IMG/VR virus record: IMGVR_UViG_3300020055_000028
Span: 1-51,087 of that record
Length of the DNA stretch: 51,087 nt
Reading direction: 5' to 3' (one strand)
Source of the DNA: a virus
Shown: one piece after another, positions 4,686 through 48,634 of the stretch
Position numbering within the stretch: the stretch's first letter is position 1
Layout: every line of letters starts with the position of its first letter
The notes under the pieces: generated by a model
Database searches by the model: none
What the model saw: only the letters and a program-made list of their open reading frames with translations
Told to the model about the DNA's origin: nothing
Position numbers and translations under genes: made by a program

Positions 4686-5297
4686 ATGTTTCAAATTCAA
4701 GAAAAGCTTGTCCCTCCTCATTTTCTTTCTCATTTCGGTGTTATGAAATCTGTTTTTGACGATGAAGAAATCGATCGAATCAAATTTTACGAGAAGATTT
4801 TAGATTTTACGCCGGCGGCAACGGTCGGCCAAAAAGTTGATCCAGAAACTCATGACCCGGATGTTCATGATTATCGAAATAATAAAGTCGGTTATATGAC
4901 TGTTGATCAAAATACCGAATGGTTATGGAGTAAAATAGCGCATATAACAGGCAAAGCTAATTACGATTTATTCCTATACGATATTGAATTTCTAGAAACA
5001 ATAAACTATTTGATATATGAAGAAGGCAATGAGTATAAAGAACATCGCGACTGCTCATCTTACGGTTATCGCAAATATGATAGAAAAATATCAGGTATAG
5101 TAATGTTATCTGATTCGGACGAATATGAAGGTGGAGAACTCGAAATAAATATATCAGCAACCTCCTTTGAAAAAACTGAATTACAGAAAGGTGATGTGGC
5201 ATTTTTTGATAGTTGGTTTACTCATCGAGTAAATCCAGTTACTAAAGGAACTAGAAGGACATTAGCATTTTGGGCGCATGGATTGAACAAAATATGA
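4686..5297 (+). CDS. PKHD-type 2OG-Fe(II) dioxygenase (prolyl hydroxylase-like)
   Basis: This 203-residue protein has the double-stranded beta-helix signature of Fe(II)/2-oxoglutarate dioxygenases. The Fe-binding HxD is in YKEHRD (H120, D122), the distal His is in WFTHRV (H180), and the 2OG-binding Arg is in PVTKGTRRTLAFW (R190). The run GGELEI followed by KGDVAFFDSWFTHRVNPVT matches the prolyl 4-hydroxylase/PiuC-type core. All key residues are present, so activity is likely. The substrate cannot be read from sequence. Prolyl or other side-chain hydroxylation is the family norm, and the immediate upstream gene encodes a Pro/Tyr-repeat protein. A strong ribosome site (AAGGTGA) lies 7 bases before the ATG. 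The stop overlaps the next start (ATGA). Confidence 0.88.
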   Translation: MFQIQEKLVPPHFLSHFGVMKSVFDDEEIDRIKFYEKILDFTPAATVGQKVDPETHDPDVHDYRNNKVGYMTVDQNTEWLWSKIAHITGKANYDLFLYDIEFLETINYLIYEEGNEYKEHRDCSSYGYRKYDRKISGIVMLSDSDEYEGGELEINISATSFEKTELQKGDVAFFDSWFTHRVNPVTKGTRRTLAFWAHGLNKI

Positions 5298-5551
5298 ATC
5301 TTTGGAATAAAATAAAAAAATGGTTTATCGCATTATTCATCGATGAATATGAGGTGACAATATATTTTCCTAATGAAATTATTGAAAAACCAGATGGCAG
5401 CAAACAACAAGGTTTTAATCCCAAAACCTATGTTTGTAGAAAATTAAAAAAGGTAACAAATACTCACTTTAAATTATGTCTAGTTGATGGTAATTTTGTA
5501 GAGATTAAAACTGTAGATCCAGTGGGATTTGATATTGTAAAAACAAAATAG
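5294..5551 (+). CDS. Small conserved phage protein of unknown function
   Basis: I place the start at the ATG inside the ATGA overlap with the hydroxylase stop, giving 85 residues beginning MNLWNKIKKWFIALF. An in-frame ATG at 5270 would lie within the hydroxylase gene and is less likely. The N-terminal 16 residues are amphipathic and aromatic-rich (WNKIKKWFIALFI), so peripheral membrane contact is possible. The rest (EVTIYFPNEI, PKTYVCRKLKKV, VEIKTVDPVGFDI) looks like a small beta-barrel. I recall similar proteins in marine T4-like phages, without a known function. Translational coupling to the oxygenase suggests co-expression, not necessarily shared function. Confidence 0.65.
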   Translation: MNLWNKIKKWFIALFIDEYEVTIYFPNEIIEKPDGSKQQGFNPKTYVCRKLKKVTNTHFKLCLVDGNFVEIKTVDPVGFDIVKTK

Positions 5552-5558
5552 GTTTATT

Positions 5559-5888
5559 ATGGCTGAAGAAGAACAGATAAAACACGCGTATCACCCAGCA
5601 GATTCTAATGGAGATGGTAAAGTTAGCAAAGAAGAAGAAAGATTATACCTTGAATTCAAAAGAAAAGAACTTGAAGATGCAGATGCAATGCGAGATGCTC
5701 AAAGAAAAATGGCATGGTTCGCTCTTGCTGGTATGTTGCTCTATCCCGCCATGGTTGTTATTACTGATCTTGCTGGATTAGAAAAAGCATCAAATATTTT
5801 AGGTGACATGGCTCCAACATATTTTGTTGCCGTCGCTGGTTTAGTAGCAGCGTTTTTTGGAGCACAAGCTTATCAAAAAGGAAAATAA
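5559..5888 (+). CDS. EF-hand plus two-TM membrane protein, holin candidate
   Basis: The 109-residue protein has three parts. Residues 14-25 form a canonical calcium-binding EF-hand loop (DSNGDGKVSKEE). A charged helix follows (about 26-50). Two hydrophobic segments come last (about 52-70, WFALAGMLLYPAMVVI, and about 86-105, YFVAVAGLVAAFFGAQAY), before a short basic tail. It directly precedes a spanin pair, which makes it the best holin candidate in the window. EF-hand small membrane proteins are familiar in marine phages, though usually unassigned. The holin role is inferred from topology and position. Calcium binding is predicted from the loop residues. Confidence 0.6.
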   Translation: MAEEEQIKHAYHPADSNGDGKVSKEEERLYLEFKRKELEDADAMRDAQRKMAWFALAGMLLYPAMVVITDLAGLEKASNILGDMAPTYFVAVAGLVAAFFGAQAYQKGK

Positions 5889-5891
5889 ATT

Positions 5892-6284
5892 ATGCCAATA
5901 TTGATTTTGTTATTTTTATTAATGTCAATGGGTGGAGGAGCGTGGTATTATTATACTGATACTCAAGAAAGGCTTGCAACTCTCAGAGACAATAACTCAA
6001 AGCTAATGTTAGTCGCGGAAACAAATCAACAAACGATTGACAGCCTGCAAAAAGATTACGCGATCGCTCAAGAAAATCTAGAGAACCTCGCGAAAAGAGC
6101 ACAAGAGGCAGAAGTATATCAAGATGAATTAGCAGCAAAGCTAAGACGACATGATTTGACTGTTCTTACCCTACAAAAACCTGGATTAATTGAAAAGAGA
6201 GTAAACAATGCAACATCCAAAATTTTTATGCAAATTGAAGCTGACACTGGTAACCAGTCTGCTATTGCTTCTCAGTCTGAATAG
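5892..6284 (+). CDS. i-spanin-like (Rz-type) inner-membrane protein
   Basis: This is a 130-residue protein with an N-terminal membrane segment (about residues 2-20, PILILLFLLMSMGGGAWYYY) and then a long heptad-like helical region (about 25-95, rich in Q/E/K/L). This is the architecture of Rz-type i-spanins, which link the inner membrane to an outer-membrane partner during the last step of lysis. The following gene starts inside this one in another frame and encodes a lipoprotein, the classic overlapping Rz/Rz1 arrangement. Assignment rests on topology and gene overlap, because spanins are poorly conserved in sequence. Confidence 0.65.
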   Translation: MPILILLFLLMSMGGGAWYYYTDTQERLATLRDNNSKLMLVAETNQQTIDSLQKDYAIAQENLENLAKRAQEAEVYQDELAAKLRRHDLTVLTLQKPGLIEKRVNNATSKIFMQIEADTGNQSAIASQSE

Positions 6285-6660
6285 CGGCTGTGCGAGTGTA
6301 GAACCACAAGTCGTTGTAAAAACAGATTATATTGTCAAAGACATTCCGATTCAACCTCGACCTAAACCAGTAAATTTACATCGTGTAAAATTTTATGCTG
6401 TTACTCCGGAAAATATAGACGAATTTTTACAAAAGTTCGAAAAAGAATCAGGTGTTACCGTTTATTTTGCATTGAGTGTACCTGATTATGAAAACATGAG
6501 TTTGAATGTTGCAGAATTGCGTAGATATATAAACCAGCAGCAAGCTCTTATTATATATTATGAAGAGTCTATCGAGACTATGATAAGAGAAACTCCTGAA
6601 GATTCAGAAGTTATAGTTCAAGAAGGAACCGATTCTTTATTTGATTTATTTAAATGGTAA
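6208..6660 (+). CDS. o-spanin-like (Rz1-type) lipoprotein
   Basis: The 150-residue protein has a positively charged N-terminus, a hydrophobic stretch (LTLVTSLLLLLSL) and a lipobox-like LNSGC with the candidate lipidated Cys near residue 28. A short Pro-rich segment (IQPRPKPVN) follows, and then a 90-residue soluble domain. Rz1 proteins are outer-membrane lipoproteins, often Pro-rich. The start lies 77 bases inside the i-spanin gene. The protein is longer than many Rz1 proteins, so it could also be another outer-membrane lipoprotein. Lipid attachment implies a Gram-negative host envelope. An in-frame TTG at 6235 would give a shorter signal peptide. Confidence 0.62.
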   Translation: MQHPKFLCKLKLTLVTSLLLLLSLNSGCASVEPQVVVKTDYIVKDIPIQPRPKPVNLHRVKFYAVTPENIDEFLQKFEKESGVTVYFALSVPDYENMSLNVAELRRYINQQQALIIYYEESIETMIRETPEDSEVIVQEGTDSLFDLFKW

Positions 6661-6663
6661 ATT

Positions 6664-7395
6664 ATGACAATTGATGTAAAATTTTTAGATACTAGTAATG
6701 GTATGTATCGGATTCATCCAGTTCAACGAGCAGCAGCAGTTGAAGCCGCACATAAAAAGAAACAAATAGACAAACACGGCAAAGAAACCTTTGTCGATTG
6801 TCCTGGTATTTTTGATTATAAAAATACTGGTTGGATTATACCAGCTTGGGATGAATTTAAAATATATTGTTCAGACAAAGCGACGATGGCATATGCTGGT
6901 GGCAGCTCAAAAATGCGCGAGGCAAACGGTAATATTCCATGTCCAGTGCATCATGATAGTAATCCAAATGGTATGAGTCCAGATATTACTGATGGCATAC
7001 CTCCAGGTGACAAAAATGCAGTTGCAAGATTGCAACCACTTCATTTTACTTCTCCATGGATGGTAATGCCAGAAGGAGATGTATCTTTCTTATTATTGGC
7101 TCCTCATTATCATTCAGATATTGTTGATGATTTTATCATTTATCCGGGAATAGTAGATTATAATCCTCGATTTGGAGCTTTAAATTGGATTATGTCACCT
7201 CGAAGAGAGGGTACTTATACAATTAAAGCTGGTACTCCATTATTACATGTAATACCAATACATAAAGCTGATTATAGAATTATCATGACTCCAGAGAAAA
7301 GAGAAAGACCTGGAATCATTGCTTCTGCTAGTCAATTTTATCGTAAATACGTTATGAAAAGATCAAAATATACAGTGGAAATAAAAGATGATTAA
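6664..7395 (+). CDS. DUF6065-like protein of unknown function
   Basis: The 243-residue protein contains PWMVMPEGDVSFLLLAP, YPGIVDY, a strand pair around INWIMSP-like sequence (ALNWIMSPRREG), and AGTPLLHVIPIHKADYRI. This succession matches my recollection of the DUF6065 family, a beta-sandwich/cupin-like group found beside oxygenases and in phages. I cannot verify the match. Cys- and His-rich CPVHHDSNP near residue 97 could bind a metal, but this is speculative. The gene overlaps the next oxygenase gene by 8 bases, which is itself joined to a further oxygenase by an ATGA overlap. The three form a translationally coupled unit. No function is assigned. Confidence 0.6.
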   Translation: MTIDVKFLDTSNGMYRIHPVQRAAAVEAAHKKKQIDKHGKETFVDCPGIFDYKNTGWIIPAWDEFKIYCSDKATMAYAGGSSKMREANGNIPCPVHHDSNPNGMSPDITDGIPPGDKNAVARLQPLHFTSPWMVMPEGDVSFLLLAPHYHSDIVDDFIIYPGIVDYNPRFGALNWIMSPRREGTYTIKAGTPLLHVIPIHKADYRIIMTPEKRERPGIIASASQFYRKYVMKRSKYTVEIKDD

Positions 7396-8182
7396 TCAAG
7401 AAAAACTTGAAGATTTAAAATTAGATATTTGGTTTAATGATAGGGGCGTATATGTTGAAAATATACTAGAAGAACCAGAAATCTATGCCGACTGGGATAG
7501 TTTAGTAGAAACATTTGCTTTACCCCATGTGGGTAATCACTTGTATATGAATAAAACTGACGATATAAGTGAAATAGTAAATGTTGTAAATATTAGAAAT
7601 ACTAATGGTCTAGAAAAACAATATTTAAAAACAAATGAAATTCAGAAAGAAGTTAAATCTTTTAACGAATCGCCGTGTGTCACATCACAAGAATTATTAG
7701 AAAATAATCATACGTTTATAGTCACTGATTGGGAAAGATATAACGAAAATGCCAGAAATATAATTCATCAATTATTAGAGACTTTTTATGTTGAACATGT
7801 AAATTTTGGCATTTGGCCAGCACAAATTAGCGATTATTCTGGGCATGCTCATTTATATGCTGGTTTAAAAGACAGTAATTCATTTAGTCCTCACTGTGAT
7901 ATGCCTTCGAATTTTATTTTTCAAATAGATGGTGAAACTGAAGTTACCATTTATAAAAATCGTAGCTGTCAATTATTAGATAGTTCGATAGACGGCACAT
8001 GGGAAGAAGATAGAAGAAAAGAATTATTCGATAGTTTCGAAATTGATTTTGAGGTCGTAATGAAACCAGGTGATATGATTTATGTTCCTTCACGTCAATA
8101 TCATTATTTTAAACCATTGACAAATCGATTATCAATTAGTTATCCACTTATATATCGCAGTCCTTTCGAAGGCATGTTATGA
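7388..8182 (+). CDS. JmjC/cupin-type Fe(II)/2OG oxygenase
   Basis: The 264-residue protein has the cupin/JmjC pattern in its second half. SPHCDMPSNFIFQIDGE provides HxD (H169, D171) on the strand that leads into the jelly roll, and MKPGDMIYVPSRQYHYF provides the distal His (H239). A conserved-looking Arg follows in NRLSISYPL. This resembles Cupin_4/Cupin_8 and ribosomal-oxygenase-type hydroxylases, which modify protein side chains. Residues 1-130 have no recognised motif and may be a substrate-binding part. The full metal triad suggests activity. The substrate is unknown. The start lies inside the preceding DUF6065-like gene and the stop overlaps the next gene (ATGA). Confidence 0.75.
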   Translation: MINQEKLEDLKLDIWFNDRGVYVENILEEPEIYADWDSLVETFALPHVGNHLYMNKTDDISEIVNVVNIRNTNGLEKQYLKTNEIQKEVKSFNESPCVTSQELLENNHTFIVTDWERYNENARNIIHQLLETFYVEHVNFGIWPAQISDYSGHAHLYAGLKDSNSFSPHCDMPSNFIFQIDGETEVTIYKNRSCQLLDSSIDGTWEEDRRKELFDSFEIDFEVVMKPGDMIYVPSRQYHYFKPLTNRLSISYPLIYRSPFEGML

Positions 8183-8844
8183 GCGATCAATTACAAATAT
8201 CACGCCAATATCTTTGGTCAGATAGTCTTTTTGAAATAAAAATTCCAAATGCGAATAATCAAGCGATAGTAGATTTTTATGAGATCGGGTCTAAATCACA
8301 CAAAGGAGATGCACGATCAAATATAGGTGGATGGCAATTCCCTATGAAAGATGGTATGTGTGAAGAATATGATCAAATTATGGATAGAATAGTTGAAGGT
8401 GTAAATCATATTGCAAACAATGTAATGGGCATGAGTTTAATTATAGAAATGTCTAATTCGTGGATAAATACAAATAAATTAGGTGCCAAAAATGCATTTC
8501 ATACACATCCTGGATGTTTATTTTCTGGTGTTTATTATGCGAAAGTACCAAAAATAGGCGATCCGGGTTATATTAATTTCGTTAGAGAAGGTCATCATCA
8601 AATTGAATCGACCCTCGCTTTTTTTGCTGATCATTATGCACAACAAAGATTAGAGCAAAATGGTGGAGATGATAGAGATATGCAATGGATCACTCATATG
8701 ACCGTGCCGCCTGTCGAAAGTAGCGCTTTAATTTTTCCATCATGGTATGGTCATGAAGTATATACATCTTTATCAGAAAAAGAAGATAGAATTGCTGTAG
8801 GTATGAATTTCTCTCCACGGTTGACTTCAGAAAATAATAAATAA
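8179..8844 (+). CDS. 2OG-Fe(II) oxygenase, TIGR02466-like
   Basis: The 221-residue protein shows WINTNKLGAKNAFHTHPGCLFSGVYY-type core features. Fe-binding candidates are H108 and H110 in FHTHP, a distal His in PSWYGHEV (H192), and an Arg in EDRIAVGMNF (R204). The succession H-x-HP...SGVYY...LIFPSWxxH...R..V..N matches the putative 2OG-Fe(II) oxygenase family I know as TIGR02466, which occurs in many marine phages and bacteria. The first metal-site motif reads HxH rather than HxD, so the ligand assignment is tentative. It is translationally coupled to the JmjC-type gene. The substrate is unknown. Confidence 0.75.
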   Translation: MSDQLQISRQYLWSDSLFEIKIPNANNQAIVDFYEIGSKSHKGDARSNIGGWQFPMKDGMCEEYDQIMDRIVEGVNHIANNVMGMSLIIEMSNSWINTNKLGAKNAFHTHPGCLFSGVYYAKVPKIGDPGYINFVREGHHQIESTLAFFADHYAQQRLEQNGGDDRDMQWITHMTVPPVESSALIFPSWYGHEVYTSLSEKEDRIAVGMNFSPRLTSENNK

Positions 8845-8868: not shown

Positions 8869-9216
8869 ATGGCTTCGAGAGTAGAAGATCTGACTGTCAC
8901 TCAAGGCACAGATATGAGTTTCAAAATCTATTTGAAAGACTCTGCGGGCGCATCTCTTGATGTTTCGACTAAATTATTTAGCGCTTCGATGAAAAAATCT
9001 TATACGTCAACGGCGAGCATTGATTTTACAACTGCTGTCAATGACGCGCCGAATGGTGTTATGACAATTTCCCTTACAAAAGATCAAACAACGAATTTAG
9101 ATGAACACGTCAGATATGTCTACGATGTTATGATGTATGAAGCAGGTAACACAAACGTCGAAGAAATACTTAATGGTAAAGTATTCATCAAACCCACAGT
9201 CACGAGATTAAGTTAA
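8869..9216 (+). CDS. Small beta-sandwich fibre/baseplate-associated protein
   Basis: The 115-residue protein begins MASRVEDLTVTQGTDMSFKIYLKDSAG and has SLDVSTKLFSASMKK, GVMTISLTKDQTTNLDE and YVYDVMMYEAG. This resembles the small Ig-like/BppU-N-like domain proteins that phages encode just before a fibre gene. The pattern is of strands only, with no membrane segment. It joins the following large fibre gene by a TAATG overlap, so the two are probably made together. The role as a fibre or baseplate accessory is inferred. Confidence 0.65.
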   Translation: MASRVEDLTVTQGTDMSFKIYLKDSAGASLDVSTKLFSASMKKSYTSTASIDFTTAVNDAPNGVMTISLTKDQTTNLDEHVRYVYDVMMYEAGNTNVEEILNGKVFIKPTVTRLS

Positions 9217-12200
9217 TGTCTACTATTACTACACGTTCTGCAAAAGGTTCTGCTCTGACTCATACAGAGATGGATGCTAATTTTACTAATCTCAATACAG
9301 ATAAAGTAGAAACTAAAGGTACATTGACAAAAACATTTGCAAATAATGAGACCGCAGCAATTACGTTATCTTCAGCAATGCCAAGCGGTCATATTCCAGT
9401 TGTATCAGTTACTAAAGATGCCGTTGTTGATGGATTAGTAGAATCAAGCTGGGATGTCAATTCGACTGGATCTAATTATGAGATTAGCGATGGTACAACT
9501 TATACTGTCACTTTGACATCAGCAAATGCAGGACATACACCATATAATTTAGAATGGGACGGTAACACTGCAAATACTGCAGGTGAGTTAGCTACTATAT
9601 TAAGTGATTTATCGCCAGGTATTGCTGGAAGTTCGCCTGGATATGCTAGTTATTTAAAAATTATGAAATTTGTCGATAATGGAAATAAAATTTTTATCGC
9701 AAATACAGCTTTGACTGGATTTGCATTATATGATTTATCGACCGCATACGATACATCTACTGCAGTTTTAGCTAATACATCTAGCATTGATTGGACTTCT
9801 GATATTACCTACACCGGGTATAATTATATGTACCAGAAGTGGGATATAGAATTCGATGACGACGGTGATAGAATGTGGCTGATGGGCAATACGAGAGCAT
9901 ATACCGGTTCCTCATATACTTATTATACATTTTGTCATGAATTTTCTTTAACCACACCGTATGTAATTGAACCCGGTAATGTAACTCACGTAGGAAATAC
10001 TGTACACGGATCCTCGGGTTTGTATAACCCCAGCTCGGATTATATTTTATATAGAGGATGGTATAAACCTACTGGTTTATATGTGCAAGGTAATTATTAC
10101 ATGCAACAATTATTCGATAATGATAACTCAACATCTGTAGTTGGTGTAAGCAGTACTAGTAATGGATATAACCTTATTCGTGATGTATTTTATACGGATC
10201 CTAATGGCGGTCTAGCTCCTCATCATACTGCAGTGTCTACTTCTCTTGGAGAAGTTTGGGCCGGCCCGATGAGTGATGATTTACAAAGGGTTGTCGGGAA
10301 AAAAAATACCAATCGACAAATAGCTTTTTTCGAATATACTGATAGAGGAGGAAATCGATATCATGCGAATGAAGTTTTAGGTGATTGGGATTTCTATATA
10401 GATCATAGTTCATCTGGTCCTCAAGGTCAATGGTTGGAAAAAGAACCGTTTAGAAAATGGTATGATGATAATGGCGGTACTTTTAACACCTTAACACTTT
10501 TTGATAATAATTACGATTCTTTGTTAGACGCAGATGCTGACGGCAATTTATATTTGTTTTTTCCTAAAATAGGTCGTGTTTATAAATTTACATGTGCACA
10601 TGTATCAAAAGCTAGATTTAAAAGATCAAGCGGGTCATGGTCAGCTAATGATGTAGGAAAAGTAATATCTGGGAATGGAGGTAAAGCAGTTCTTACTGCA
10701 ATTGACGGTTCATATACTATTATTGATCCATTTGATAATACAGATCCTATTACATCATGGACATTAGAAGATTTTAGTGTTAAAAGTGATGCAGAGGGCC
10801 TAGAATTAGCTTCATCATCGTCTTCCTACGATTTAGGTAGAATGCATCTTAATCCCGATAATTACAACACTGCATATGGTCCGGTTCCCGATGATCGTTT
10901 GGGAATGACATATGACGCTATAGATTTTTATCCAGTTTCTGGTGCTAATGCAAATAATATGGTAAACTATCAAGATAACACATTTGAGAATGGTGCATAT
11001 TCTATCGAGAATATGGTTAGGGCCGTTTGTTGGGGAGACAACGGAAATATAGCTGTTTTTTATGGTGGTAATAACAATAAATTTTATACTGTAGATTTAA
11101 ATAGACCATATGATTTTCTTTATAATACGCCCGTATGTTCTACAACAAAAATATTAGATCCGTCGTCCACTACTGATAGTTACGATATTGAATTTAGTGC
11201 CAATGGTCATATGTTTTTTTATGCACTTGGGTCCACTCTCGTATCGGTTGAATTGACAACTGATTGGGATATTGGATCAGCTAATACCTCAACAAAATAT
11301 ACTACTACTAATCTATGCACAACTGCCGGCCCCTACGGCGCATTGCAATTTAATATCAAACCGGATGGTACTAAATTATGGGCAATGGATTATTATACTA
11401 CTAATAGCAGCAAATATGTATGGGAGTATACATTAACTACTCCATGGGATTTGTCTACTAGAACATTAGCCGCAACACATACGAATACAGCGAAAATATT
11501 CGAAGGTATCAAAGGAAATGGGAGTGCGACGGGCGAAGAATACACTGATCATTATTACACGCATGGAATATTCGAATGGAATTCAGACGGTACTGCTATC
11601 TTTATTAATAGATATAATCGAGAATCGAGTCAAAGTCATCGTTCATATTTAGCCAAAGTCGGTGTCAAAACACCTTGGGATTTGTCAACTGCATATGTCA
11701 CTGGGCATATGGTAAATGGTACTCATGGCGATCATGGAGCTGGAGGTTGGCAATATGGACCACGATCGTTCATGGGAGGTGACGGAACTATGATGATTCA
11801 TGCTACAGTCGATTCTTCTCCAACATATTATTACTTATGTGCTCAAAAAACAGGCGGCGCGAGTTATTTGACCGGTTACAATACAGCAATTACTGGAAGT
11901 ACTGCACAGATTGATACAACAAATTGGAATGATATAAACGGCGTAACAGTTACCGAAGCGAAAAACGATGGTGATATTTACTATAGTTTTAGTACTGATA
12001 ATAGAACTACGTGGAAAATTATACATAATACGGATGGTGAAAGAAGTATAGCAAGAAATAATGGCGGCACTTGGCAATATAATAGTAATATTACTTACGC
12101 TACAAATACGTGGACAAATGCAGCAATCAATAGCGAAAAAGGTGCAATACAAGAAGCCTCTGCTTTAGCAGTAAATAGAATGGACAAAACACAATTTGAA

Positions 12201-20971: not shown

Positions 20972-23512
20972 ATGCCTTTTCAATTAAGCCCAGGCGTTAA
21001 TGTTACAGAGATCGATCTGACCACTGTAATCCCTGCCGTAGCCACGACCGATGCCGCAATTGCAGGCGTTTTTAAGTGGGGACCGGTAGATAAGCCTTCA
21101 CTCGTTGTATCTGAAAGCGAGTTAGCTTCAGTTTATGGTAAGCCAGATTCTGATAATGCAGAAACCTGGTTTACAGCAGCTAACTTTTTGTCATATGCTA
21201 ATCGTCTGCATGTATCTCGAGCTCATCACTCGACTGGTAATATCAATCGCATTAACGCATATGCTGTAAACAATAGCACTAATCTTATTGTAGATGCTGC
21301 TTCAGTAAGTGTTCAAGATAATGATATCATTAGTCAAATGGTGGCTGGAACTACATTAGATACACAAGTAATAGTTGATTCTTCAGAGATTGATTTTAAT
21401 TCTGGAGATTCTACAACTACCATTAATGCTACCTCAGATGCTATTGTATTGAATACACCTTTGACTCTTCTCGAAGGCGAACAAGTGTTTTTGTCTAGTT
21501 CAAATAATTTGCCTACCGCGGTCGACAATGTAACACCTTATTTCCTTGTTGATGTAGCATCAGATAATCTTAGCTTTAAGTTGAGCGCTAGTCGAGGTGG
21601 TTCACCAATTAATTTCGTCGCCGGTCAAGAAGGCGATGGTGATATGACATTAACTCGGCGCGGCCAAACTCGTATTACTCTTCTTGGATCTACTTACACT
21701 GGTGCGACCGGCACCTTCGATTTTGAATTTCATGATCCCAAATGGTCATTTAACGCAATTGCTAATACTTCAGCACTTTCAACAACTGCGTTGATATCTA
21801 ATCATATTGTAAAAAATGAAGATCATTATGATTCAGGAATCGATGGAAATTTTGACGATGCAGTTATGTACATCGCCAAATACCCCGGAACATTGGGTAA
21901 TTCATTGAAAGTTTCAGTATGTGATAGCGCAGCAGCATTTAATAGTACAGTAACTGTAGCAGCTGGTACTACAATGGCAATCAACATCGGTTCAAATACC
22001 GGTACGGTTAGCGCTTCTACTAATACAGCTGTAAGTGATGTTACTGATGAACTCAATGTGGGTGATTTGATTAAAGTTGGTAATTCAGAGATTGGTATGC
22101 AGTATCTTGAAGTTACAGCAATCGATCCTGTAGGAACTGCAACTAGCACTACGGTTCATTTTGGTGAAAATCTTGTCACATCAGAAAACATCTCAGTTAC
22201 AAATAGCTCCTTCGAAAGATTTTGGGGTTTTTGGGGTGTTGTAAGCGGTGCACCTGGTCAGTCAGCATTTATGGCTGCTCAAGGTAATACTGCCGCAAAT
22301 GATGAGTTGCATGTTGTAGTCGTTGACGAAGATGGAGAAATCACCGGTACACCAAACACTATTCTTGAAGTTTGGTCTGGTCTTTCTCGAGCTACTGATG
22401 CGAAGAGCAAAGACGGCGCTAATCTGTATTATAAGGATGTCATCAACCAATCTTCTAAGTGGATTTGGTGGGCAAACGATTCTACAGCCGCTCCTTCAGC
22501 AACAGCTTTATTGCTTGCATCATCAACAGCAACCGCTCCACTATCAATGTCAATGACTATGGGGCGCGATATTGGTTCTGAGTCAACTACAAATAATCTT
22601 GGAGATATTCTTCGAGCATATGATAAGTTTAAGTCAGGCGAAGATATTGATGTTTCATTAATCTTGACAGGCAAATCTCGCGGCGGTGCTACTACTAATG
22701 GTGGCCGAATCGTTGAAGGTTTCCAACTGGCTAACTATCTAATCGATAATATTGCAGAGTCAAGAAAAGATTGTGTAGTATTTGTATCTCCGGAGAAAGA
22801 GGATGTAGTTGGAAATGTAACTGATATTACTGAAGACGTAAATGATTTTAGATCTGCCCTTCGATCTACTTCATACGCTGTGATGGATAGCGGTTACAAA
22901 TATCAATATGATAAGTATAATGATGTATATCGATGGATTCCAATGAACGGTGACATTGCTGGTCTTTGTGCGCGCACAGATGACACGCGTGATCCTTGGT
23001 ATTCACCTGCAGGATTTAATAGAGGTAATATTAAGAACATCGTCAAACTCGCTTGGAATCCTAAGAAAGCAGAACGTGACTTGTTGTATAGCAACGGTGT
23101 AAATCCGATTGTCAACTTCCCTGGACAAGGTATTGTAATGTTCGGTGATAAGACATTGCTTGCGAAGCCATCTGCATTTGATAGAATCAATGTACGAAGA
23201 TTGTTTATTGTACTTGAGAAAGCAATTGCTACCGCATCGAAGTTTACTCTCTTCGAATTCAATGATGAGTTTACTCGAGCTAGCTTTGTAAATCTCGTAA
23301 CACCTTACCTACGAGATGTACAAGGTCGTCGCGGTATTACTGATTTCTTAGTAGTGGCTGATGAGACGAATAATACTGGTGAAGTTATTGATCGTAACGA
23401 GTTTGTTGGAGATATCTACATCAAACCCGCTCGAAGCATCAATTTCATTCAGTTGAATTTTGTCGCTGTACGATCTGGCGTAGAATTCTCCGAAGTTGTT
23501 GGGAATTTCTAA
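20972..23512 (+). CDS. 18: Tail sheath protein gp18
   Basis: The 846-residue protein starts PFQLSPGVNVTEIDLTTVIPAV, the hallmark start of myovirus sheath proteins. Its conserved C-terminal domain includes RDPWYSPAGFNRG, NPIVNFPGQGIVMFGDKTLL, DRINVRRLFIVLEKAI and KPARSINFIQLNFVAVRSG. The sheath contracts around the tube during injection. It is about 190 residues longer than T4 gp18 (659), and the extra length lies in the middle, variable, surface-exposed part (roughly residues 100-450). AAGGGAGA precedes the ATG. High expression is expected from its own late promoter. Confidence 0.95.
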   Translation: MPFQLSPGVNVTEIDLTTVIPAVATTDAAIAGVFKWGPVDKPSLVVSESELASVYGKPDSDNAETWFTAANFLSYANRLHVSRAHHSTGNINRINAYAVNNSTNLIVDAASVSVQDNDIISQMVAGTTLDTQVIVDSSEIDFNSGDSTTTINATSDAIVLNTPLTLLEGEQVFLSSSNNLPTAVDNVTPYFLVDVASDNLSFKLSASRGGSPINFVAGQEGDGDMTLTRRGQTRITLLGSTYTGATGTFDFEFHDPKWSFNAIANTSALSTTALISNHIVKNEDHYDSGIDGNFDDAVMYIAKYPGTLGNSLKVSVCDSAAAFNSTVTVAAGTTMAINIGSNTGTVSASTNTAVSDVTDELNVGDLIKVGNSEIGMQYLEVTAIDPVGTATSTTVHFGENLVTSENISVTNSSFERFWGFWGVVSGAPGQSAFMAAQGNTAANDELHVVVVDEDGEITGTPNTILEVWSGLSRATDAKSKDGANLYYKDVINQSSKWIWWANDSTAAPSATALLLASSTATAPLSMSMTMGRDIGSESTTNNLGDILRAYDKFKSGEDIDVSLILTGKSRGGATTNGGRIVEGFQLANYLIDNIAESRKDCVVFVSPEKEDVVGNVTDITEDVNDFRSALRSTSYAVMDSGYKYQYDKYNDVYRWIPMNGDIAGLCARTDDTRDPWYSPAGFNRGNIKNIVKLAWNPKKAERDLLYSNGVNPIVNFPGQGIVMFGDKTLLAKPSAFDRINVRRLFIVLEKAIATASKFTLFEFNDEFTRASFVNLVTPYLRDVQGRRGITDFLVVADETNNTGEVIDRNEFVGDIYIKPARSINFIQLNFVAVRSGVEFSEVVGNF

Positions 23513-25844: not shown

Positions 25845-27008
25845 ATGGACGAATTCAATGACATTATAAACAAAGCCTTTTCGGTAAGTTTATATAAAAA
25901 ATTAGACAAAAGGACTGATGAGAAACTTGATAGTCTAAAAGAAAATATCAAGACACTCAAAAGTTTTACTGGCCCGATCGGACCAGCAGGTCCAGCAGGT
26001 CCACAGGGTCCAGAAGGCCCACCGGGGATTATAGGTGAAGAAGGTCCAAGAGGTTTCAAGGGTGATACAGGTCCTCAGGGTCCAGAAGGACCGGCAGGTC
26101 CTCAAGGACCGCAAGGAGAAAAAGGAGATCCGGGCGGACCAGTCGGTCCACAAGGCCTTCAAGGAGATATTGGACCAAGAGGTCCGCAAGGTGTACCGGG
26201 ACCACCAGGATTAAAAGGTGATAGAGGACCAACTGGTCTAAAAGGAAATAAAGGTCCAAAAGGTTTACGCGGTCTTAGAGGTTTAGAAGGTCCACAAGGT
26301 ATACCAGGACCAATTGGTCCAGAAGGAAAAATTGGACCAAGAGGAGAAACAGGACCTCAAGGATTACAAGGACCAAAAGGTGATATTGGTCCTCAAGGTT
26401 TAACAGGTAAAATAGGTCCAAAAGGACCAAAAGGTGCTAAGGGCGCCAAAGGCCCAAAAGGTGATACAGGTCCTCAGGGTCCAGCGGGTAAAGATGCACC
26501 TGATTATAAAATTCAAATTGAAGACGCATTAGACGAATTCAATAAGAAAATTCAGACAGTTCAAAAAGGCTTTGATAAAAAAGCCAGTGAGATGTTTAAT
26601 AGATTTGGACTGGTTGGCGCGACAGGTAGTGGTGAAGTAAAACTAAGAAGATTGGACGATGTCGAATTCGATACGCTCAATCCACCGTTAGACGGCACTC
26701 TACTTACATATGATGCGGTACAGAAAAAATTTGTATTTGATACGTTTGTAGGTGTTGCATCTGCATCTGGTGTAAATTTACAAGTAACTACACTCGATGA
26801 TTTTCAAACATTTACACGCGCTTTATCTGGAACAAGTTTTACAGTAGATCTAGAAGTCGAAAATCTTATAAATATTGTAGAATATTTTATTGTAAGAGAT
26901 AGTGACAATGTTAGAGTATATCCAGTAATTGATAGAACGATAACTGAGATAAATATAGAATCAAACCTAGATCTAACAGGAACAACACTAACTATAATTC
27001 ACTACTAA
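25845..27008 (+). CDS. Collagen-like Gly-X-Y repeat protein
   Basis: The 387-residue protein has a charged helical N-terminus (1-42, coiled-coil-like) and then a collagen-like tract (43-217) of 58 Gly-X-Y triplets, interrupted once by an extra Gly ([10 protein letters not shown]). A helical linker follows ([25 protein letters not shown]), and then a C-terminal strand-rich domain (about 255-387). Prolines are mostly in the X position (GPx), with only a few in Y (GPP, GDP, GVP, GIP). Lysine is frequent in Y (12 cases such as GPK, GLK, GAK). Collagen-like tracts form trimeric shafts in phage fibres. It starts 3 bases after the portal stop, where T4 has scaffold and protease genes. A fibre or head-decoration shaft is inferred. 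Confidence 0.85.
25971..26495 (+). repeat. Collagen-like Gly-X-Y coding tract
   Basis: 58 triplets (18 + 40) with a single-residue break after the 18th. The DNA is dominated by 9-nt steps starting GGT/GGA and CC-rich codons, making it locally GC-rich and giving long spurious antisense ORFs. Confidence 0.9.
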
Positions 27009-41300: not shown

Positions 41301-41588
41301 AATACATATCAAGAACAGACGCAAAATTATACTGCGGTCGCCGGCGACAGACTCATTGTTGATACATCGAACACAGTGACTATTACGTTACCTGCATCCG
41401 CATCTCTCAGCGATGAGATAAGAATTATTGACGGTACAGGTAATGCATCGATAAATAATATAACTGTGGCCAGAAACGGACACAACATCGAAGGATTAGC
41501 TCAAGACTTAACAGTCAATGTAAATAGAGCAGCATTTGGTTTAGTATACTATAATGCTACTCAAGGCTGGATTATGACGGAACGATAA
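38385..41588 (+). CDS. Long tail fibre protein with NLYYTDARA repeats
   Basis: The 1067-residue protein starts with the shared module AAYNFPNSPSDGDTVVINGVTYTYNSTKNAW and a GDLWYDTANNELYVY module. It carries NVTYNLGSETKRWNDLYLSGNTIYLG (about 195-225). A central shaft (about 360-730) repeats DTDDLSEGTTNLYYTDARADARI, a classic phage fibre shaft unit; some pairs are close to 90 residues long and are almost copied (TTSDLxEGTNLYYTDARARAAISENSxQLSYNSTTGVL). Two further GDLWFD modules lie near the end. The C-terminal domain ends NNITVARNGHNIEGLAQDLTVN...GWIMTER, a trimeric tip type seen in many phage fibres. It overlaps the next gene by TAATG. Confidence 0.82.
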   Translation: MAAYNFPNSPSDGDTVVINGVTYTYNSTKNAWKDGAASSSGSSSFVVVGNTAPATPGDGDLWYDTANNELYVYIDSSNTWADSATFTQVDYVTKVGHNLADPTATADIVLDAGDGINPATYYGDVIDKTANNFVVLDISTRNFWGNTNGTHFGEVYDPSGSTLIIENSIPTPTVHADLDGNILGSATVAGNLTPTANVTYNLGSETKRWNDLYLSGNTIYLGSLELSESSNALLISVAGANAETFATQEYVQSQLATKDQLSELNDVNMAGITAGDFLLYDGSEFLPVDFATEVNTYADTRISLASIQDLSDVDGVDTPASGDVLLYNAGSSNFGFINLGSEINSYFDIRLATKDTDDLSEGTTNLYYTDARADARINLQTGANLDLSNKTTSDLAEGTNLYYTDARARAAISENSAQLSYNSTTGVLTFTQGDTDTVSEGATNLYFTDARARSAISASGDLSYNSTTGVMSFTETTTTLSIGSNILSYVDETGATTNIDLSLYLDDTNLARLTSGAVDANGLATFTRSDNTTFTVDFAVLFDDTNLTRITSGSFSNNVITLTRSDSTTAATIDLSTTYLQNLSSEDTDDLTEGVNNLYFTNARADARINLQTGANLDLSQKTTSDLSEGTNLYYTDARARAAISENSTQLSYNSTTGVLTYTQGDTDTVTEGSTNLYYTDTRADARIALQVGANLDLTQKDTDDLSEGSTNLYYTDARARSHIEGADLDLGTNKILFSNMYATTGDLPSATSYHGMFAHVHGTGAAYYAHAGSWIELANASDIPTIPTIPSDLDDLNNVSNTAPLDGQALVWDNANSEWAPGNVASSGGATALGDLTDVSTTGATTGQVLKYNGSSWAPAADATGGGGGASVTSSNTAPSAPSEGDLWFDTSDLTMYVYYDDGSNAAWITVTPEVGGSGGVTVSSTPPSSPSYDDLWFDDTNLILYIYFYDGNSAQWVQTNPSGGGSTTTPNTYQEQTQNYTAVAGDRLIVDTSNTVTITLPASASLSDEIRIIDGTGNASINNITVARNGHNIEGLAQDLTVNVNRAAFGLVYYNATQGWIMTER

Positions 41589-42850
41589 TGGCAAATTATT
41601 CAGATATCAAAGCAGGTTTAGGAGGCGGAGTAACAGAATACGCTAATGCTGCTGCATTGCCAACAAGTGGTAATTCTCTCGGTGATCTCGCAGTTACAAT
41701 TGATACAAAAGCATTGTATATGTGGGATGGTAGTGAATGGGATAAAATTTATCTAGGTCCAGATATGGTTCCTGAATTTACATCTTTACCATTATCTTCT
41801 TATAATTTAAGTAGCGGTTCGAATACATTAATTACTGTGGCTGCTAATGATCCAGATGGATTTCCAATTACATATAGTCATGATACAAATCCATCTAATC
41901 AGCAACAAGCAATAATAACAAATAGTGGTGGTACATTTACACTTGTTCCTAGTTCAAATACTTCTCATGCTGGTAATTTTACTTTGAGATTTAAAGCTAC
42001 TGATGGTGTACATGTAGCAACTCAATCTTCTACTATAGTTTTAGCATTTTATGATTTTACAATTAGTCCTACTATTAATAGTGCATCAGAATGGACACTT
42101 TCATCTGATGGCGATTTAGTTTTAGATAGCGCAGGCACATATACTATCGTACCTTCTAGTGATTTAACTATCGATACTAAAATGTGGGGTGCTGGCGGAT
42201 CAACTACGGGTAATTTATCTGGAGGTGCGGGAGGTTATTCTAGTGGTACATTATCGTTAACAGCTGGAACTAGTTATATTATTCGTGTTGGATCAGAAAC
42301 TGGAGGCGGTACAGGTGGATCAGGAACAGGAGGCGGTTATTCAGGCATTTTCGAAGTAACTGAAGCTCATGCAAATTCTGTCATTATTGCTGGCGGTGGT
42401 GGAGGTGGTTGTTCTCAATATAGTGTTTCTCAAGTACCAGCAGCGGGAGGAGGATCTTCTGGCCAATCTGGTGGTTATCAAGGCACCAGTGGTGGTAAAG
42501 GCGGAACTCAATCTGCTGGAGGTGCAGCAGCTGATGAAGGTTTATCAAGAGGAGGAACTGCTGGTAGCGCTCTTACAGGTGGTATAGGTAATTCTGCTGG
42601 TTCCTACGGAGGTGGCGGCGGAGGTTCAGGTTATTATGGAGGCGGTGGCGGAGCGTCACGTGTTGGTGGTGATGGTGGTAATAGCGGCATGGGCGGTGGC
42701 GGCTCTGGATATATAGGACATTCAATAGTATCAAATGGAGTTACTACAGCTGGTAATCAAGCGACTCCAGCAAATTCAACAGATACAGATCGTGGTACAG
42801 CTGGAAATCCAGCCAATCCAGGTAAAGTTATCATATCAGTAGCAGCATAG
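41588..42850 (+). CDS. Fibre/adhesin with cadherin-like and Gly-rich domains
   Basis: The 420-residue protein has a short N-terminus with the ALYMWDGSEWDKIYLG module (about 45-60). A cadherin-like/Ig-like domain follows (about 62-152: TLITVAANDPDGFPITYSHDTNP, GTFTLVPSSNTSHAGNFTLRFKATDGVH). Then comes a FYDFTISPTINSASEW linker and a strongly Gly-rich C-terminal domain (about 195-420: GGYSSGTLSLTAGTSYIIRVG, SVIIAGGGGGG, YGGGGGGSGYYGGGGGAS, ending NPGKVIISVAA). Gly-rich domains of this kind recall the polyglycine-helix adhesins of T-even phages (gp38 of S16), which contact receptors. That link is by analogy. Confidence 0.75.
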   Translation: MANYSDIKAGLGGGVTEYANAAALPTSGNSLGDLAVTIDTKALYMWDGSEWDKIYLGPDMVPEFTSLPLSSYNLSSGSNTLITVAANDPDGFPITYSHDTNPSNQQQAIITNSGGTFTLVPSSNTSHAGNFTLRFKATDGVHVATQSSTIVLAFYDFTISPTINSASEWTLSSDGDLVLDSAGTYTIVPSSDLTIDTKMWGAGGSTTGNLSGGAGGYSSGTLSLTAGTSYIIRVGSETGGGTGGSGTGGGYSGIFEVTEAHANSVIIAGGGGGGCSQYSVSQVPAAGGGSSGQSGGYQGTSGGKGGTQSAGGAAADEGLSRGGTAGSALTGGIGNSAGSYGGGGGGSGYYGGGGGASRVGGDGGNSGMGGGGSGYIGHSIVSNGVTTAGNQATPANSTDTDRGTAGNPANPGKVIISVAA

Positions 42851-42857
42851 GTTTTAT

Positions 42858-44420
42858 ATGGCAATTAATTTTCCAGACAATCCAACAGACGGCGATACAC
42901 ACGCTGGATTTACTTGGAACGCTACAACAGGAGCGTGGCAATCTGCTGCGTATCACACAGCAACTGGAAATACAGCACCAACAAATCCACAAAGTGGTGA
43001 TCAATGGTTTGACACATCAGACGGAACCCTATACGTTTATTTTAATGATGGTTCATCGTCACAGTGGGTCGGCGTATCAGGACCGCAAGGGCCAGCGGGA
43101 GCAACTGGAATCGATGGTGTTGACGGATCATCAGTAACGAGTTATGCAAATACTAGTTTATTTCCTTTATCAAATAATTCTGCAGGTGATTTTGCCTTTA
43201 CTACAGATACAAAAGCATTGTATATGTGGGATGGTAGTGTATGGGATAGAATATCAACGGGTGTAGATGAAACTCCAGAATGGACGACAGAACCAAACTC
43301 AAGTTATGATTTAAACGCAGATGGTACAAATACTAGTATTACAATAGCAGCTTCTGATCCTGAAGGATTTCCAATTACATATAGTTTTGATACAAATCCT
43401 ACGAATCAACCTCAAGCGACTATCACAAATAATGGCGGTGTTTTTAATTTTGTGCCTAGTACAAATACTGCACACGATGGTAGTTTTACCATGAGATTTA
43501 AAGCATCAGATGGTGTAAATATAACAACTAGATCATCTACAATGAATCTTACGTTCTTCGAATCACAATTAATGGCAGAAGTATATAATGATTCTTATTC
43601 AGCAGCAAACACCGGCAGCTTTACGGTACCAGATGGAGCTACGAAAGTATATTTCTTCGCATGCGCTGGAGGTGGATCTAGCGGTTATAGAACAAATCAA
43701 GATGGTGGTCATGGCGCAGGTGGAGGTGGTGCTGCAAATATTTCAGGATTCCAAGTAGCAGCATCTCCTGGAGATGTATTTGATTATTCTGTTGGTCAGG
43801 GTGGATCATTCGATAGCGGTAGCGGAGGAGCGACTACTGTTAGCCGATCATCTGTAACACTACTGCAATTAGGTGGTGGAAGTGGAGGTTCTGATGGTGT
43901 TGGAGGTGGAGGTGGTGCTGGCGGAGCTGGTGGCACCGTGATTACCGGTACTGGTGTAGCTGGAGGTGCTGGTGGAGTAGGCGGAACTCGAGGAGGCACG
44001 GCAGCTGCAAATGGAGGTAGTACTACAGATGGAACAGGCGGAGGTGGCGGAGGAGGTTATCATCTCGCCGGACAAGGCGGTACTGGAGGTTCGTCTACAA
44101 TCAGCGTATCAACTTGGACATACGGTAATATTAGTATAGCATTTAACGGAGGTTCTGGCGGCGGTCCAGGTACAAACGGAAATCCAGGAACTGCTGGTAC
44201 TAGCATACCATTGGCTGAAGCTGGTTTTGGTGTTGCGCAAGATGGAAATACTGGTGCCGGTGCAGGTGCTGGTCGCGGTATACAACCAGTCGTCAATGGA
44301 ACTGCAGCTACTTATTTTCATGGCGGTGGAGGTGGTGGTATACAATCATATATTGTAGGACGAAATATTGACGGCCGCGGTGGTGGCGGATTCTTAATTG
44401 CAGTCGCAACTAAAACTTAG
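42858..44420 (+). CDS. Fibre/adhesin with collagen-like linker, cadherin-like and Gly-rich domains
   Basis: The 520-residue protein starts AINFPDNPTDGDTHAGFTWNATTGAW and has a GDQWFDTSDGTLYVYFNDGSSSQWVG module. A short GPQGPAGATGIDGVDG collagen-like linker follows, then YANTSLFP...ALYMWDGSVWDRIS, a cadherin-like domain (SITIAASDPEGFPITYSFDTNPTNQ), and a Gly-rich domain of about 265 residues with a strand start KVYFFACAGGGSSG. The ALYMWDGS part is almost identical in DNA to the gene at 41588, which shows a recent exchange or duplication. The role as a receptor-binding fibre is inferred from the modules. Confidence 0.75.
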   Translation: MAINFPDNPTDGDTHAGFTWNATTGAWQSAAYHTATGNTAPTNPQSGDQWFDTSDGTLYVYFNDGSSSQWVGVSGPQGPAGATGIDGVDGSSVTSYANTSLFPLSNNSAGDFAFTTDTKALYMWDGSVWDRISTGVDETPEWTTEPNSSYDLNADGTNTSITIAASDPEGFPITYSFDTNPTNQPQATITNNGGVFNFVPSTNTAHDGSFTMRFKASDGVNITTRSSTMNLTFFESQLMAEVYNDSYSAANTGSFTVPDGATKVYFFACAGGGSSGYRTNQDGGHGAGGGGAANISGFQVAASPGDVFDYSVGQGGSFDSGSGGATTVSRSSVTLLQLGGGSGGSDGVGGGGGAGGAGGTVITGTGVAGGAGGVGGTRGGTAAANGGSTTDGTGGGGGGGYHLAGQGGTGGSSTISVSTWTYGNISIAFNGGSGGGPGTNGNPGTAGTSIPLAEAGFGVAQDGNTGAGAGAGRGIQPVVNGTAATYFHGGGGGGIQSYIVGRNIDGRGGGGFLIAVATKT

Positions 44421-44428
44421 GAATAATA

Positions 44429-46120
44429 ATGGCATATAATTTTCCAAATAGTCCAAACAACGGAGATACGGTAGTCGTCAATGGCTCTACCTATACCTAT
44501 GCTTCTGCAACAAATACTTGGAAAACAACTGCATCTTCAGGCGGTGGAGGTGGTGCATCAGTTACATCATCAGACACTGCACCTACTAGTCCATCTGATG
44601 GAGATTTGTGGTGGAATTCTGCTGAAGCAATCATGTATGTCTATTATGATGATGGATCTTCATCGCAGTGGGTTAGTACGAGTACTCCTGGACCTCGTGG
44701 AGAATCAGGTCTTAATGTCACTACGTCAAATACTGCACCGTCTTCTCCTACAGCAGGTCAATTTTGGTGGAACACAGACGTCAATCGATTATACATCTAT
44801 TACACTGACGCAGATTCTAGTCAATGGGTACAAGCGACTACTCCAGGTGCCGATGGGGTTGATGGTGCTGACGGTAGTTCAGTAACTTCGTACGCTAATA
44901 CTAGTTCTTTTCCTTCTTCTAATAATACAGTGGGTGATTTTGCTTTTGCGACTGATAAGAAAACATTATATACATGGGACGGTACTGAATGGGATCGTAT
45001 AGCTCATGGAAATGACGAAAGCCCTGTAATAATCACTGAACCACCGACTACGAGTGATTTAAATAATGACGGCACCACGAGCACAATCACAATGGTTGCG
45101 CAAGATCCAGAAGGTTTTGATGTTACATATGGTATTGCATATAAAACGGCTGGTAACGCGTTACCAAATCAATTAGCATCAGCAACTACAGTTAATGCAA
45201 ATGGCGAATTTACTTTTACGCCTACGTCTAATACATCAAATGCAGGATCGTTTAGAGCTAGATTGAGTGCATCAGACGGTGCTAGAACTACGACTCGTTT
45301 TGTAGATTTTAGTTTAGCATTCGCTGCGACAGTAGATTATCTTGTAGTTGCAGGCGGCGGCGCAGGTGGTGGTGTAAATAACGGCGCCGGTTGTGGTGGC
45401 GGCGGTGCTGGAGGATATATTTACACTACTGGAGCATCTTTTAATAATGGTACAACTTTTAATATTACAGTTGGTGCTGGAGGAACAGATACCGTAAAAA
45501 CTACCGGTGGAAATGGAGCAAATTCTTCTATTTCAGCTGCAGGATTTACAACTGTCACCGCAATAGGCGGAGGTGGTGGAGGCGGCGGTTCCTCTGGAGT
45601 AGCAGCAAGTGGTGGTTCAGGTGGCGGCTCCGCATACAATAGTGCTAGCTTTGGTACTGGCACAGCAGGACAAGGTAATGATGGTGGTAGTAATGGTTCT
45701 GGTACGAGTAACTATCCAGCCGGCGGTGGTGGTGGAGCAGGAGCTGTTGGTGGCACTGCATCTGGTTCTACTGGTGGTGCCGGCGGTGATGGTTTGCAAA
45801 ACTCTATTACAGGAACACCAACTTATTATGCCGGCGGCGGCGGTGGAGCAAGTCGCGGAACTGGAGGTGCTGGAGGTCTAGGAGGCGGAGCAGATGGACG
45901 TGGTAATCAAAATAATGCTAGTGGCTATGGAGCTACTCCTAATACTGGTGGTGGTGGAGGCGGCGCGCAAGGTAATGCTTTAGGAGGTCCAGGAGGTTCT
46001 GGAATTGTAATTATTAGAACTACAGCAACAGCTGCATCAACTACTGGTTCTCCGACAGTCACTACAGATGGATCGTATAACATTTATAGCTTTCTTACAG
46101 ATGGCAGTATAACTTTTTAA
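44429..46120 (+). CDS. Fibre/adhesin with two GDLWW modules, cadherin-like and Gly-rich domains
   Basis: The 563-residue protein starts AYNFPNSPNNGDTVVVNGSTYTYASATNTW. It has two modules (GDLWWNSAEAIMYVYYDDGSSSQWVS and GQFWWNTDVNRLYIYYTDADSSQWVQ), each followed by a short Gly-X-Y linker (GPRGESG; GADGVDGADG). Then come YANTSSFP...TLYTWDGTEWDRIA, a cadherin-like domain (TITMVAQDPEGFDVTYGIAYKTAGN), and a Gly-rich domain from about 310 that begins DYLVVAGGGAGGGV and contains GPGGSGIVIIRTTA. An ~35-residue tail follows. The cadherin-like part is closest to that of the gene at the window end. Confidence 0.75.
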   Translation: MAYNFPNSPNNGDTVVVNGSTYTYASATNTWKTTASSGGGGGASVTSSDTAPTSPSDGDLWWNSAEAIMYVYYDDGSSSQWVSTSTPGPRGESGLNVTTSNTAPSSPTAGQFWWNTDVNRLYIYYTDADSSQWVQATTPGADGVDGADGSSVTSYANTSSFPSSNNTVGDFAFATDKKTLYTWDGTEWDRIAHGNDESPVIITEPPTTSDLNNDGTTSTITMVAQDPEGFDVTYGIAYKTAGNALPNQLASATTVNANGEFTFTPTSNTSNAGSFRARLSASDGARTTTRFVDFSLAFAATVDYLVVAGGGAGGGVNNGAGCGGGGAGGYIYTTGASFNNGTTFNITVGAGGTDTVKTTGGNGANSSISAAGFTTVTAIGGGGGGGGSSGVAASGGSGGGSAYNSASFGTGTAGQGNDGGSNGSGTSNYPAGGGGGAGAVGGTASGSTGGAGGDGLQNSITGTPTYYAGGGGGASRGTGGAGGLGGGADGRGNQNNASGYGATPNTGGGGGGAQGNALGGPGGSGIVIIRTTATAASTTGSPTVTTDGSYNIYSFLTDGSITF

Positions 46121-46128
46121 GGTAAACA

Positions 46129-48627: not shown

Positions 48628-48634
48628 ATAGATC

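Follow-up and report, generated by a model that had tools for sequence, protein, structure and literature searches.

2-Oxoglutarate oxygenases clustered beside a Pro/Tyr repeat protein in a T4-like virus contig: probable modifiers of host-binding tail proteins

On what would a tailed phage use several different Fe(II)/2-oxoglutarate (2OG) oxygenases that are encoded side by side among its late genes? The question is raised by a 51-kb contig of an aquatic T4-like virus in IMG/VR (IMGVR_UViG_3300020055_000028, positions 1 to 51,087; "the window" hereafter means this whole stretch), in which three oxygenases of different families (PKHD-type, JmjC_2/Cupin_8 and PF13759) lie within positions 4686–8844, all on the plus strand, and a fourth starts at 33468 (Table 1). 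Marine T4-like phages often carry 2OG oxygenases as "auxiliary" genes, with ten in S-CREM1 and 24 reported in S-SCSM1 (PMC9964418), and in published work those of cyanophages are assigned to DNA repair, to 2OG drawdown or, in general terms, to protein modification or lipid metabolism (PMC3037559, PMC9146016, PMC9964418). The comparative evidence presented here favors a more specific answer, which we hold to be reasonably probable: the oxygenases are late-region modifiers of the phage's own host-binding tail proteins, with the PKHD-type enzyme acting on a repeat protein encoded upstream of it, most likely on prolines.

Pfam matches bear out the three families that had been named from the sequence alone, the PHROG matches agreeing wherever the PHROG is named, and the fourth gene has a PF13759 match above the cut-off. 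The catalytic residue numbers given in that sequence-only reading for the three clustered enzymes are exact, and the residues are conserved in homologues. His120, Asp122, His180 and Arg190 of the PKHD enzyme are intact, corresponding to the HxD...H iron ligands and the arginine for 2OG, and this HDHR set is present in 56 of 60 loci of the PKHD clade (collected by scanning IMG/VR with a PKHD alignment and adding earlier loci; 24 clusters at 80% identity). JmjC residues His169, Asp171, His239 and Arg247 are invariant in 12 homologues; the catalytic residues of the oxygenase at 8179 are His108, His110, His192 and Arg204, and HHHR occurs in all seven PF13759 neighbours checked. The TIGR02466 label of this last enzyme is given by resemblance, the family call resting on PF13759. 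The nearest solved relatives of the PKHD enzyme are the PKHD hydroxylases PiuC and Sbal_3634, those of the JmjC protein, by profile, are the NO66/MINA, YcfD and JMJD5 families, and PDB entries 3bvc_A and 2rg4_A are distant relatives of the oxygenase at 8179. Where the function of solved JmjC relatives is known, it is protein hydroxylation, of histidyl or arginyl residues in the case of NO66, MINA and YcfD. The JmjC protein shares the JmjC_2 profile and the HxD...H ligands with these ribosomal oxygenases, but has 264 aa compared with 373–489 aa for their solved chains. The presence of three oxygenases therefore stands, but their independence does not, as they fall into two sub-modules (repeat protein with PKHD; DUF6065-like protein with JmjC and PF13759 enzymes), of which the Pro/Tyr repeat gene and the dUTPase-fold (DUF6065-like) gene had been overlooked.

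The repeat gene ends 21 bp before the PKHD gene, and its product, which we propose as an adhesin or tail-tip substrate, consists of 17% Tyr, 10% Pro and 5% Gly. Within the repeats, conservation is highest for Pro (0.77), followed by Arg (0.72) and Tyr (0.64), with Asn, Glu and Leu at 0.23 or less. The pair is kept in three related contigs (L005, L006 and L007; loci compared are given L numbers), in which the repeat protein has 73, 69 and 44% aligned identity and the PKHD enzyme 82, 79 and 55%, respectively. Throughout the PKHD clade, a Pro/Tyr-rich repeat protein is encoded at most three genes upstream of the PKHD gene in 23/23 clusters with upstream sequence, and is immediately adjacent in 20 of these; a DUF6065-like gene follows at most three genes downstream in 21/24 clusters, and five genes on in the window. 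The repeats themselves are of types unrelated among lineages (QPAYSVTTNYPSR, TNYNVAYPIANQP, YNPGSANYNAGNP, VPGNATGNFNI, YGYNVTPGNTNPA, NQPYPFQAPGTK and YNAQNPAS). Marine and freshwater groups share homologous N-terminal flanks (hhalign probability 96.8%, E 2.8e-10), and no match was obtained between the C-terminal flanks of these two groups. In most homologues, a non-repetitive centre separates two repeat arms as a clear central gap, which is weaker in the window protein. Persistence of the pair through turnover of the repeat sequence suggests that what matters is a residue class rather than a fixed sequence. Isolated phages yielded no match to the repeat proteins of the window and of L272, and no isolate carries the repeat–PKHD form.

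In a wider PKHD set (28 clusters at 60% identity), a repeat protein, in some cases collagen-like, occurs within two genes in 9.3 clusters compared with 4.6 expected from random genes of the same loci (0 of 2000 permutations reached the observed value). Co-occurrence with repeat proteins in relatives, which the sequence-only reading had made a test of its proposal, holds in the PKHD clade but fails in distant cyanophage PKHD homologues, such as that of ACG-2014a, which have no repeat neighbour. Tyr content is significantly higher in PKHD-linked than in other repeat proteins (10.6% vs 2.2%, p=3e-10). Loci L015–L020 encode a collagen-like protein upstream of the PKHD enzyme, followed by two related genes of about 250 aa (MKVAVC[VI]SGQPRNY...), and are possibly another hydroxylase-plus-transferase set.

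In the freshwater/estuarine branch of the clade, the DUF6065 pair is followed by a gene of about 320 residues whose product matches PF11397, "Glycosyltransferase (GlcNAc)" (GlcNAc, N-acetylglucosamine); each of the five proteins tested gave this match, at E-values between 1.5e-25 and 3.4e-34. A PF11397 gene lies at most four genes from the PKHD gene in 15/24 clusters and in 0/251 other loci compared; isolated phages yielded a single weak match to this transferase, in Xanthomonas phage XacN1 (21%). We take PF11397 to be the Pfam family of Gnt1 (GT60). GT60 also contains a polypeptide transferase of Trypanosoma cruzi, so that the acceptor of a PF11397 enzyme need not be hydroxyproline. Gnt1 adds GlcNAc to a proline of Skp1 that has been hydroxylated by the prolyl 4-hydroxylase PhyA, and Gnt1 needs PhyA (PMC6939170). 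The phage clusters resemble this PhyA–Gnt1 system of Dictyostelium and Toxoplasma in combining a PF13640-type hydroxylase and a PF11397 transferase beside a Pro-rich protein; unlike it, the system is phage-encoded and predicted from genes, and its target would be a repeat protein with many prolines. Sulfotransferase-type genes (PF03567) are found beside the module in three clusters (L177:1860-2552, L259:9702-10334 and L265:12938-13810), near Tyr/Asn/Pro repeat proteins; it is conceivable that their products sulfate tyrosine or a sugar of the repeat protein.

A lineage represented by L175 and L176 has lost catalytic residues. Its PKHD protein has H-E-W-A in place of H-D-H-R and its JmjC protein lacks the iron ligands, with the PF13759 enzyme intact; the PKHD (L175:8701-9261) and JmjC (10744-11559) frames are both full length despite these losses, and the two proteins are thus pseudoenzymes. 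The repeat type of this lineage is KNAYxTxxxTxYPARFN (K[NAS][AGS]Y occurs 37 times), and only one QP-type motif is present, compared with 16–25 in the window, L005, L006, L007 and L174. The persistence of inactive PKHD and JmjC proteins at full length would be compatible with a role in binding or as chaperones. In L094, the JmjC protein carries H239N. Arginine was considered as the JmjC substrate, with L094 lacking both His239 and most YPxR arginines, and was dropped, as L254 has an intact JmjC protein and no YPxR.

The second sub-module links the window to cassettes of isolated cyanophages. Its three genes overlap, by 8 bp between the gene at 6664 and the JmjC gene and by 4 bp between the JmjC gene and the oxygenase gene at 8179, which suggests translational coupling. 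The product of the gene at 6664 is predicted to have a dUTPase fold: dUTPases head both the Foldseek and the VIA-align lists for its AlphaFold2 model (mean predicted local distance difference test score, pLDDT, 77), with VIA-align Z of 9.5–10.5 over about 120 residues and a best Foldseek E of only 8e-3. The set DUF6065–JmjC–PF13759 near fibre genes is common to the window and to cyanophage halogenase/2OG cassettes, in which the order is Gly-rich tail-tip genes, a gene of about 160 residues, one or two flavin halogenases, DUF6065, several 2OG oxygenases, JmjC and more 2OG oxygenases. Among 34 JmjC clusters with context, a halogenase is present in 26, a DUF6065 gene in 24, two or more further 2OG genes in 30 and a nearby Gly-rich or repeat protein in 28. 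The cassettes of Syn10, S-CREM1, S-SZBM1, Sf-FP1, S-RIM44, P-RSM6, P-TIM40 and S-WAM1 are like the window in having JmjC beside 2OG oxygenases, a DUF6065-like gene in most cases and a position behind Gly-rich tail-tip genes, and in Sf-FP1 and S-RIM44 the cassette directly precedes the neck and terminase genes, the place that it has in the window. The window differs in having the repeat/PKHD sub-module with intervening spanins and only three clustered oxygenases, and no flavin halogenase (PF04820) was found in it or in its two long relatives. The halogenase VirX1 comes from Syn10, which encodes two halogenases.

In an exploratory comparison, Gly-rich tail-tip proteins upstream of a halogenase cassette contain 3.6% His compared with 0.4% in Gly-rich proteins of halogenase-free loci (p=1e-7, 46 clusters) and are also richer in Arg and Tyr, with phage lineage as a confounder; it is plausible that these three residues are acceptors in cyanophages. 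In Syn30 and Sf-CH1b, more distant JmjC homologues are found in the vicinity of cobS and replication genes, outside any such cassette. Scans with the single JmjC or PF13759 protein returned nothing beyond one known contig, alignment queries being needed, and a scan of bacterial genome contigs with the JmjC alignment returned no bacterial relatives. Alphaproteobacterial DUF6065 matches lie in ordinary chromosomal surroundings free of oxygenase cassettes, and a contig of a flavobacterial assembly (L305; NZ_RMVE01000006.1, Nonlabens xiamenensis) bears a cyanophage-type halogenase/2OG cassette with P-TIM40-like proteins and is probably phage DNA within the Nonlabens assembly; the bacterial context of DUF6065 is therefore uninformative. 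Several cassette genes that lie among 2OG oxygenases (L081:7430-8017 and similar genes of P-RSM6, P-TIM40 and S-WAM1) are labelled "DNA endonuclease V", a PHROG name that was discarded for the single gene examined, since Pfam assigns it to PF13640; in annotated cyanophages these labels have probably been propagated from PHROG names.

Table 1. Genes of the oxygenase module and its neighbours in the window.
Feature	Position	Strand	Evidence and remarks
Pro/Tyr repeat protein, 636 aa	2754..4664	+	direct repeats, ~16-residue unit QPAYxVxTxYP[AS]Rxxx
PKHD-type 2OG-Fe(II) oxygenase	4686..5297	+	PF13640 E 4.7e-16, 60 bits (cut-off 27); phrog_61
Small conserved protein	5270..5551	+	same order in L005, L006, L007
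109-aa protein, hydrophobic segments and EF-hand-like loop	5559..5888	+	weak EF-hand; phrog_27150
i-spanin (Rz-like)	5892..6284	+	phrog_739 1.2e-12
o-spanin (Rz1-like), overlaps i-spanin gene	6208..6660	+	phrog_812 6.3e-13
DUF6065-like protein, predicted dUTPase fold	6664..7395	+	phrog_7084; homologues in oxygenase cassettes
JmjC_2/Cupin_8 oxygenase	7388..8182	+	PF08007 2.8e-13, 49.9 bits (cut-off 22); Cupin_8 3.4e-9; phrog_8014
PF13759/TIGR02466-type 2OG oxygenase	8179..8844	+	PF13759 3.2e-13, 50.4 bits (cut-off 27); phrog_81
Tail-fibre assembly-type protein, first gene past module	8869..9216	+	phrog_1084/phrog_3304
Fourth oxygenase, PF13759	33468..34037	+	1.8e-7, 31.9 bits (cut-off 27); phrog_81 2e-11

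The position among late and lysis genes proposed in the sequence-only reading is confirmed by the spanin pair identified with PHROG and by the tail-fibre assembly gene at 8869, beyond which lie the neck, terminase, sheath, tube and portal genes and then a long fibre block, the layout of T4-like myovirus late genes. The fourth oxygenase gene sits between two genes of the fibre region, the downstream one, at 34043, matching tail-fibre families phrog_9729/3304. The true start of the gene at 5270 may be further inside, as the L005 homologue begins about 30 bp later, and the protein encoded at 5559 is a holin candidate by position and hydrophobicity. The large terminase is closest to those of Sinorhizobium phages phiN3 and phiM12 (58% identity), which makes an alphaproteobacterial host plausible. 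A collagen-like protein with Gly-X-Y triplets, encoded straight after the portal gene (25845-27008), is a possible second proline substrate, and several Gly-rich proteins of tail-tip type (41588, 42858, 44429 and 48635, within 41588-49954) mostly share a fibre-type N-terminal module. The tail sheath (20972-23512) has 846 aa matched over a 496-position profile, implying a large insertion.

Hydroxylation of virion proteins, offered from the sequence alone as one economical explanation, is now the best-supported option through the repeat linkage, the PF11397 association and the joint loss of catalytic residues and QP motifs; the chemistry itself is what we infer. The repeat adhesin would be made late in infection, and the PKHD enzyme would hydroxylate exposed prolines in its repeat arms. 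In sister phages, the hydroxyproline would probably be capped with GlcNAc by the PF11397 transferase, whose gene lies at a distance of two to three genes. The DUF6065, JmjC and PF13759 proteins may modify further residues (Arg, His, Tyr or Asn as candidates) of the repeat adhesin or of another tail-tip protein. The phage might thereby gain adhesins that are more rigid or resist proteases, or a receptor interface with more varied chemistry.

Several observations weigh against this account. Pfam, PHROG and PDB gave no relative of the repeat protein, and AlphaFold2 models it poorly (mean pLDDT 33.5), so that no fold is claimed and its status as a virion adhesin rests on position and architecture. 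The 24 PKHD clusters form one clade, and their counts are therefore not independent events. Pro content is not significantly higher in PKHD-linked than in other repeat proteins (median 10.4% vs 8.2%, p=0.12). PF11397 is absent from the 51-kb window, from its 160-kb relative and from the 151-kb L254 contig, and the window is for this reason not counted as a member of a Skp1-type hydroxylation/GlcNAc pathway. The joint loss of catalytic residues and QP motifs is a single event, seen in two near-identical contigs, and QPAY-type motifs are scarce or absent in L094 and L254 despite their active PKHD residues; for these reasons, the co-loss is no more than suggestive. The dUTPase fold within the module could point to nucleotides.

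Other roles for the enzymes have to be set against these data. They might act on virion adhesins mainly as folding or assembly partners, catalysis being secondary and liable to loss. The full-length frames retained in L175/L176 after catalytic loss and the H239N JmjC protein kept in L094 would suit such a role, as would the dedicated chaperones commonly required in phage fibre assembly, but almost all PKHD loci and the majority of the JmjC proteins examined have intact active sites, and the PF11397, sulfotransferase and halogenase partners are of catalytic families, which makes it unlikely. Modification of a host protein, such as a surface receptor or a ribosomal protein, is improbable given that the genes stand inside a fibre/neck block and are strictly linked to a fast-evolving phage repeat protein, even though NO66, MINA and YcfD are among the solved JmjC_2 relatives and 2OG oxygenases are widely classed as phage auxiliary metabolic genes.

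The position of the cassettes, constantly behind Gly-rich or repeat tail-tip genes, also speaks against the idea that they serve to produce or alter a peptide natural product or a small molecule, which has been suggested for phage tryptophan halogenases. Clusters of several oxygenases with a halogenase do look like biosynthetic clusters, and the S-CREM1 authors assign the halogenase to free tryptophan and to synthesis of the antibiotic pyrrolnitrin (PMC9964418). With no precursor-peptide or scaffold-making enzyme identified, and with the window branch free of halogenase, this idea appears quite improbable. We give least credence, as very improbable, to a service in DNA repair, DNA-base modification or 2OG/nitrogen signalling. 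DNA repair near uvsX/uvsY and 2OG drawdown have been proposed (PMC3037559; discussed in PMC9146016), and a dUTPase fold is part of the module; against this, the families are PKHD, JmjC_2 and PF13759 and adjoin tail genes, no DNA-modification gene is among the annotated genes of the window, and the JmjC homologues of Syn30 and Sf-CH1b, whose neighbours include cobS and replication genes, are the more distant ones that stand outside a cassette.

Modification of host-binding tail proteins, the answer preferred here, can also be compared with known adhesins. In the S16-type gp38 adhesin, which sits at a T4-like tail tip as the repeat protein is proposed to do, arms of repeats drawn from a small choice of residues carry variable segments at the tip (PMC6851490), a layout that the repeat proteins may share; in cyanophages, Gly_rich_2 proteins are found at the corresponding position. 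The window's repeat protein differs from the polyglycine sandwich of gp38 in being Pro/Tyr based and low in Gly, with no Gly-rich motifs, and the likeness is one of proposed place and layout. Mussel foot proteins and plant extensins have short Pro/Tyr repeats and undergo prolyl hydroxylation, in plants also glycosylation; the window protein is like them in composition only. More tentatively, and short of calling it probable, we propose that tailed phages carry a hydroxyproline pathway of their own, consisting of a prolyl hydroxylase, often a Gnt1-type GlcNAc-transferase and sometimes a sulfotransferase, that would decorate a fast-evolving Pro/Tyr repeat adhesin as a counterpart of hydroxyproline-rich glycoproteins, and that the principle may extend to halogenated or hydroxylated Gly-rich tail tips of cyanophages.

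The families are known; to the extent that this could be verified, no earlier description presents them together as an adhesin-modifying module. None of the accessible passages of PMC3037559, PMC9146016 and PMC9964418 names adjacent tail proteins as the substrate, and no report of prolyl hydroxylation of phage fibres was found in the literature searched, most subscription papers being outside its reach. The substrate of cyanophage flavin halogenases, like that of the 2OG oxygenases, is unproven to date, and the conserved neighbourhoods provide a specific and testable substrate class, host-binding tail proteins, for such enzymes. If the proposal is true, phages add hydroxyl, sugar, sulfate and halogen groups to the proteins that bind their receptors, a chemical diversification unseen by genome-based host-range prediction, and the hydroxyproline glycosylation of eukaryotic Skp1 would have a counterpart in phages.

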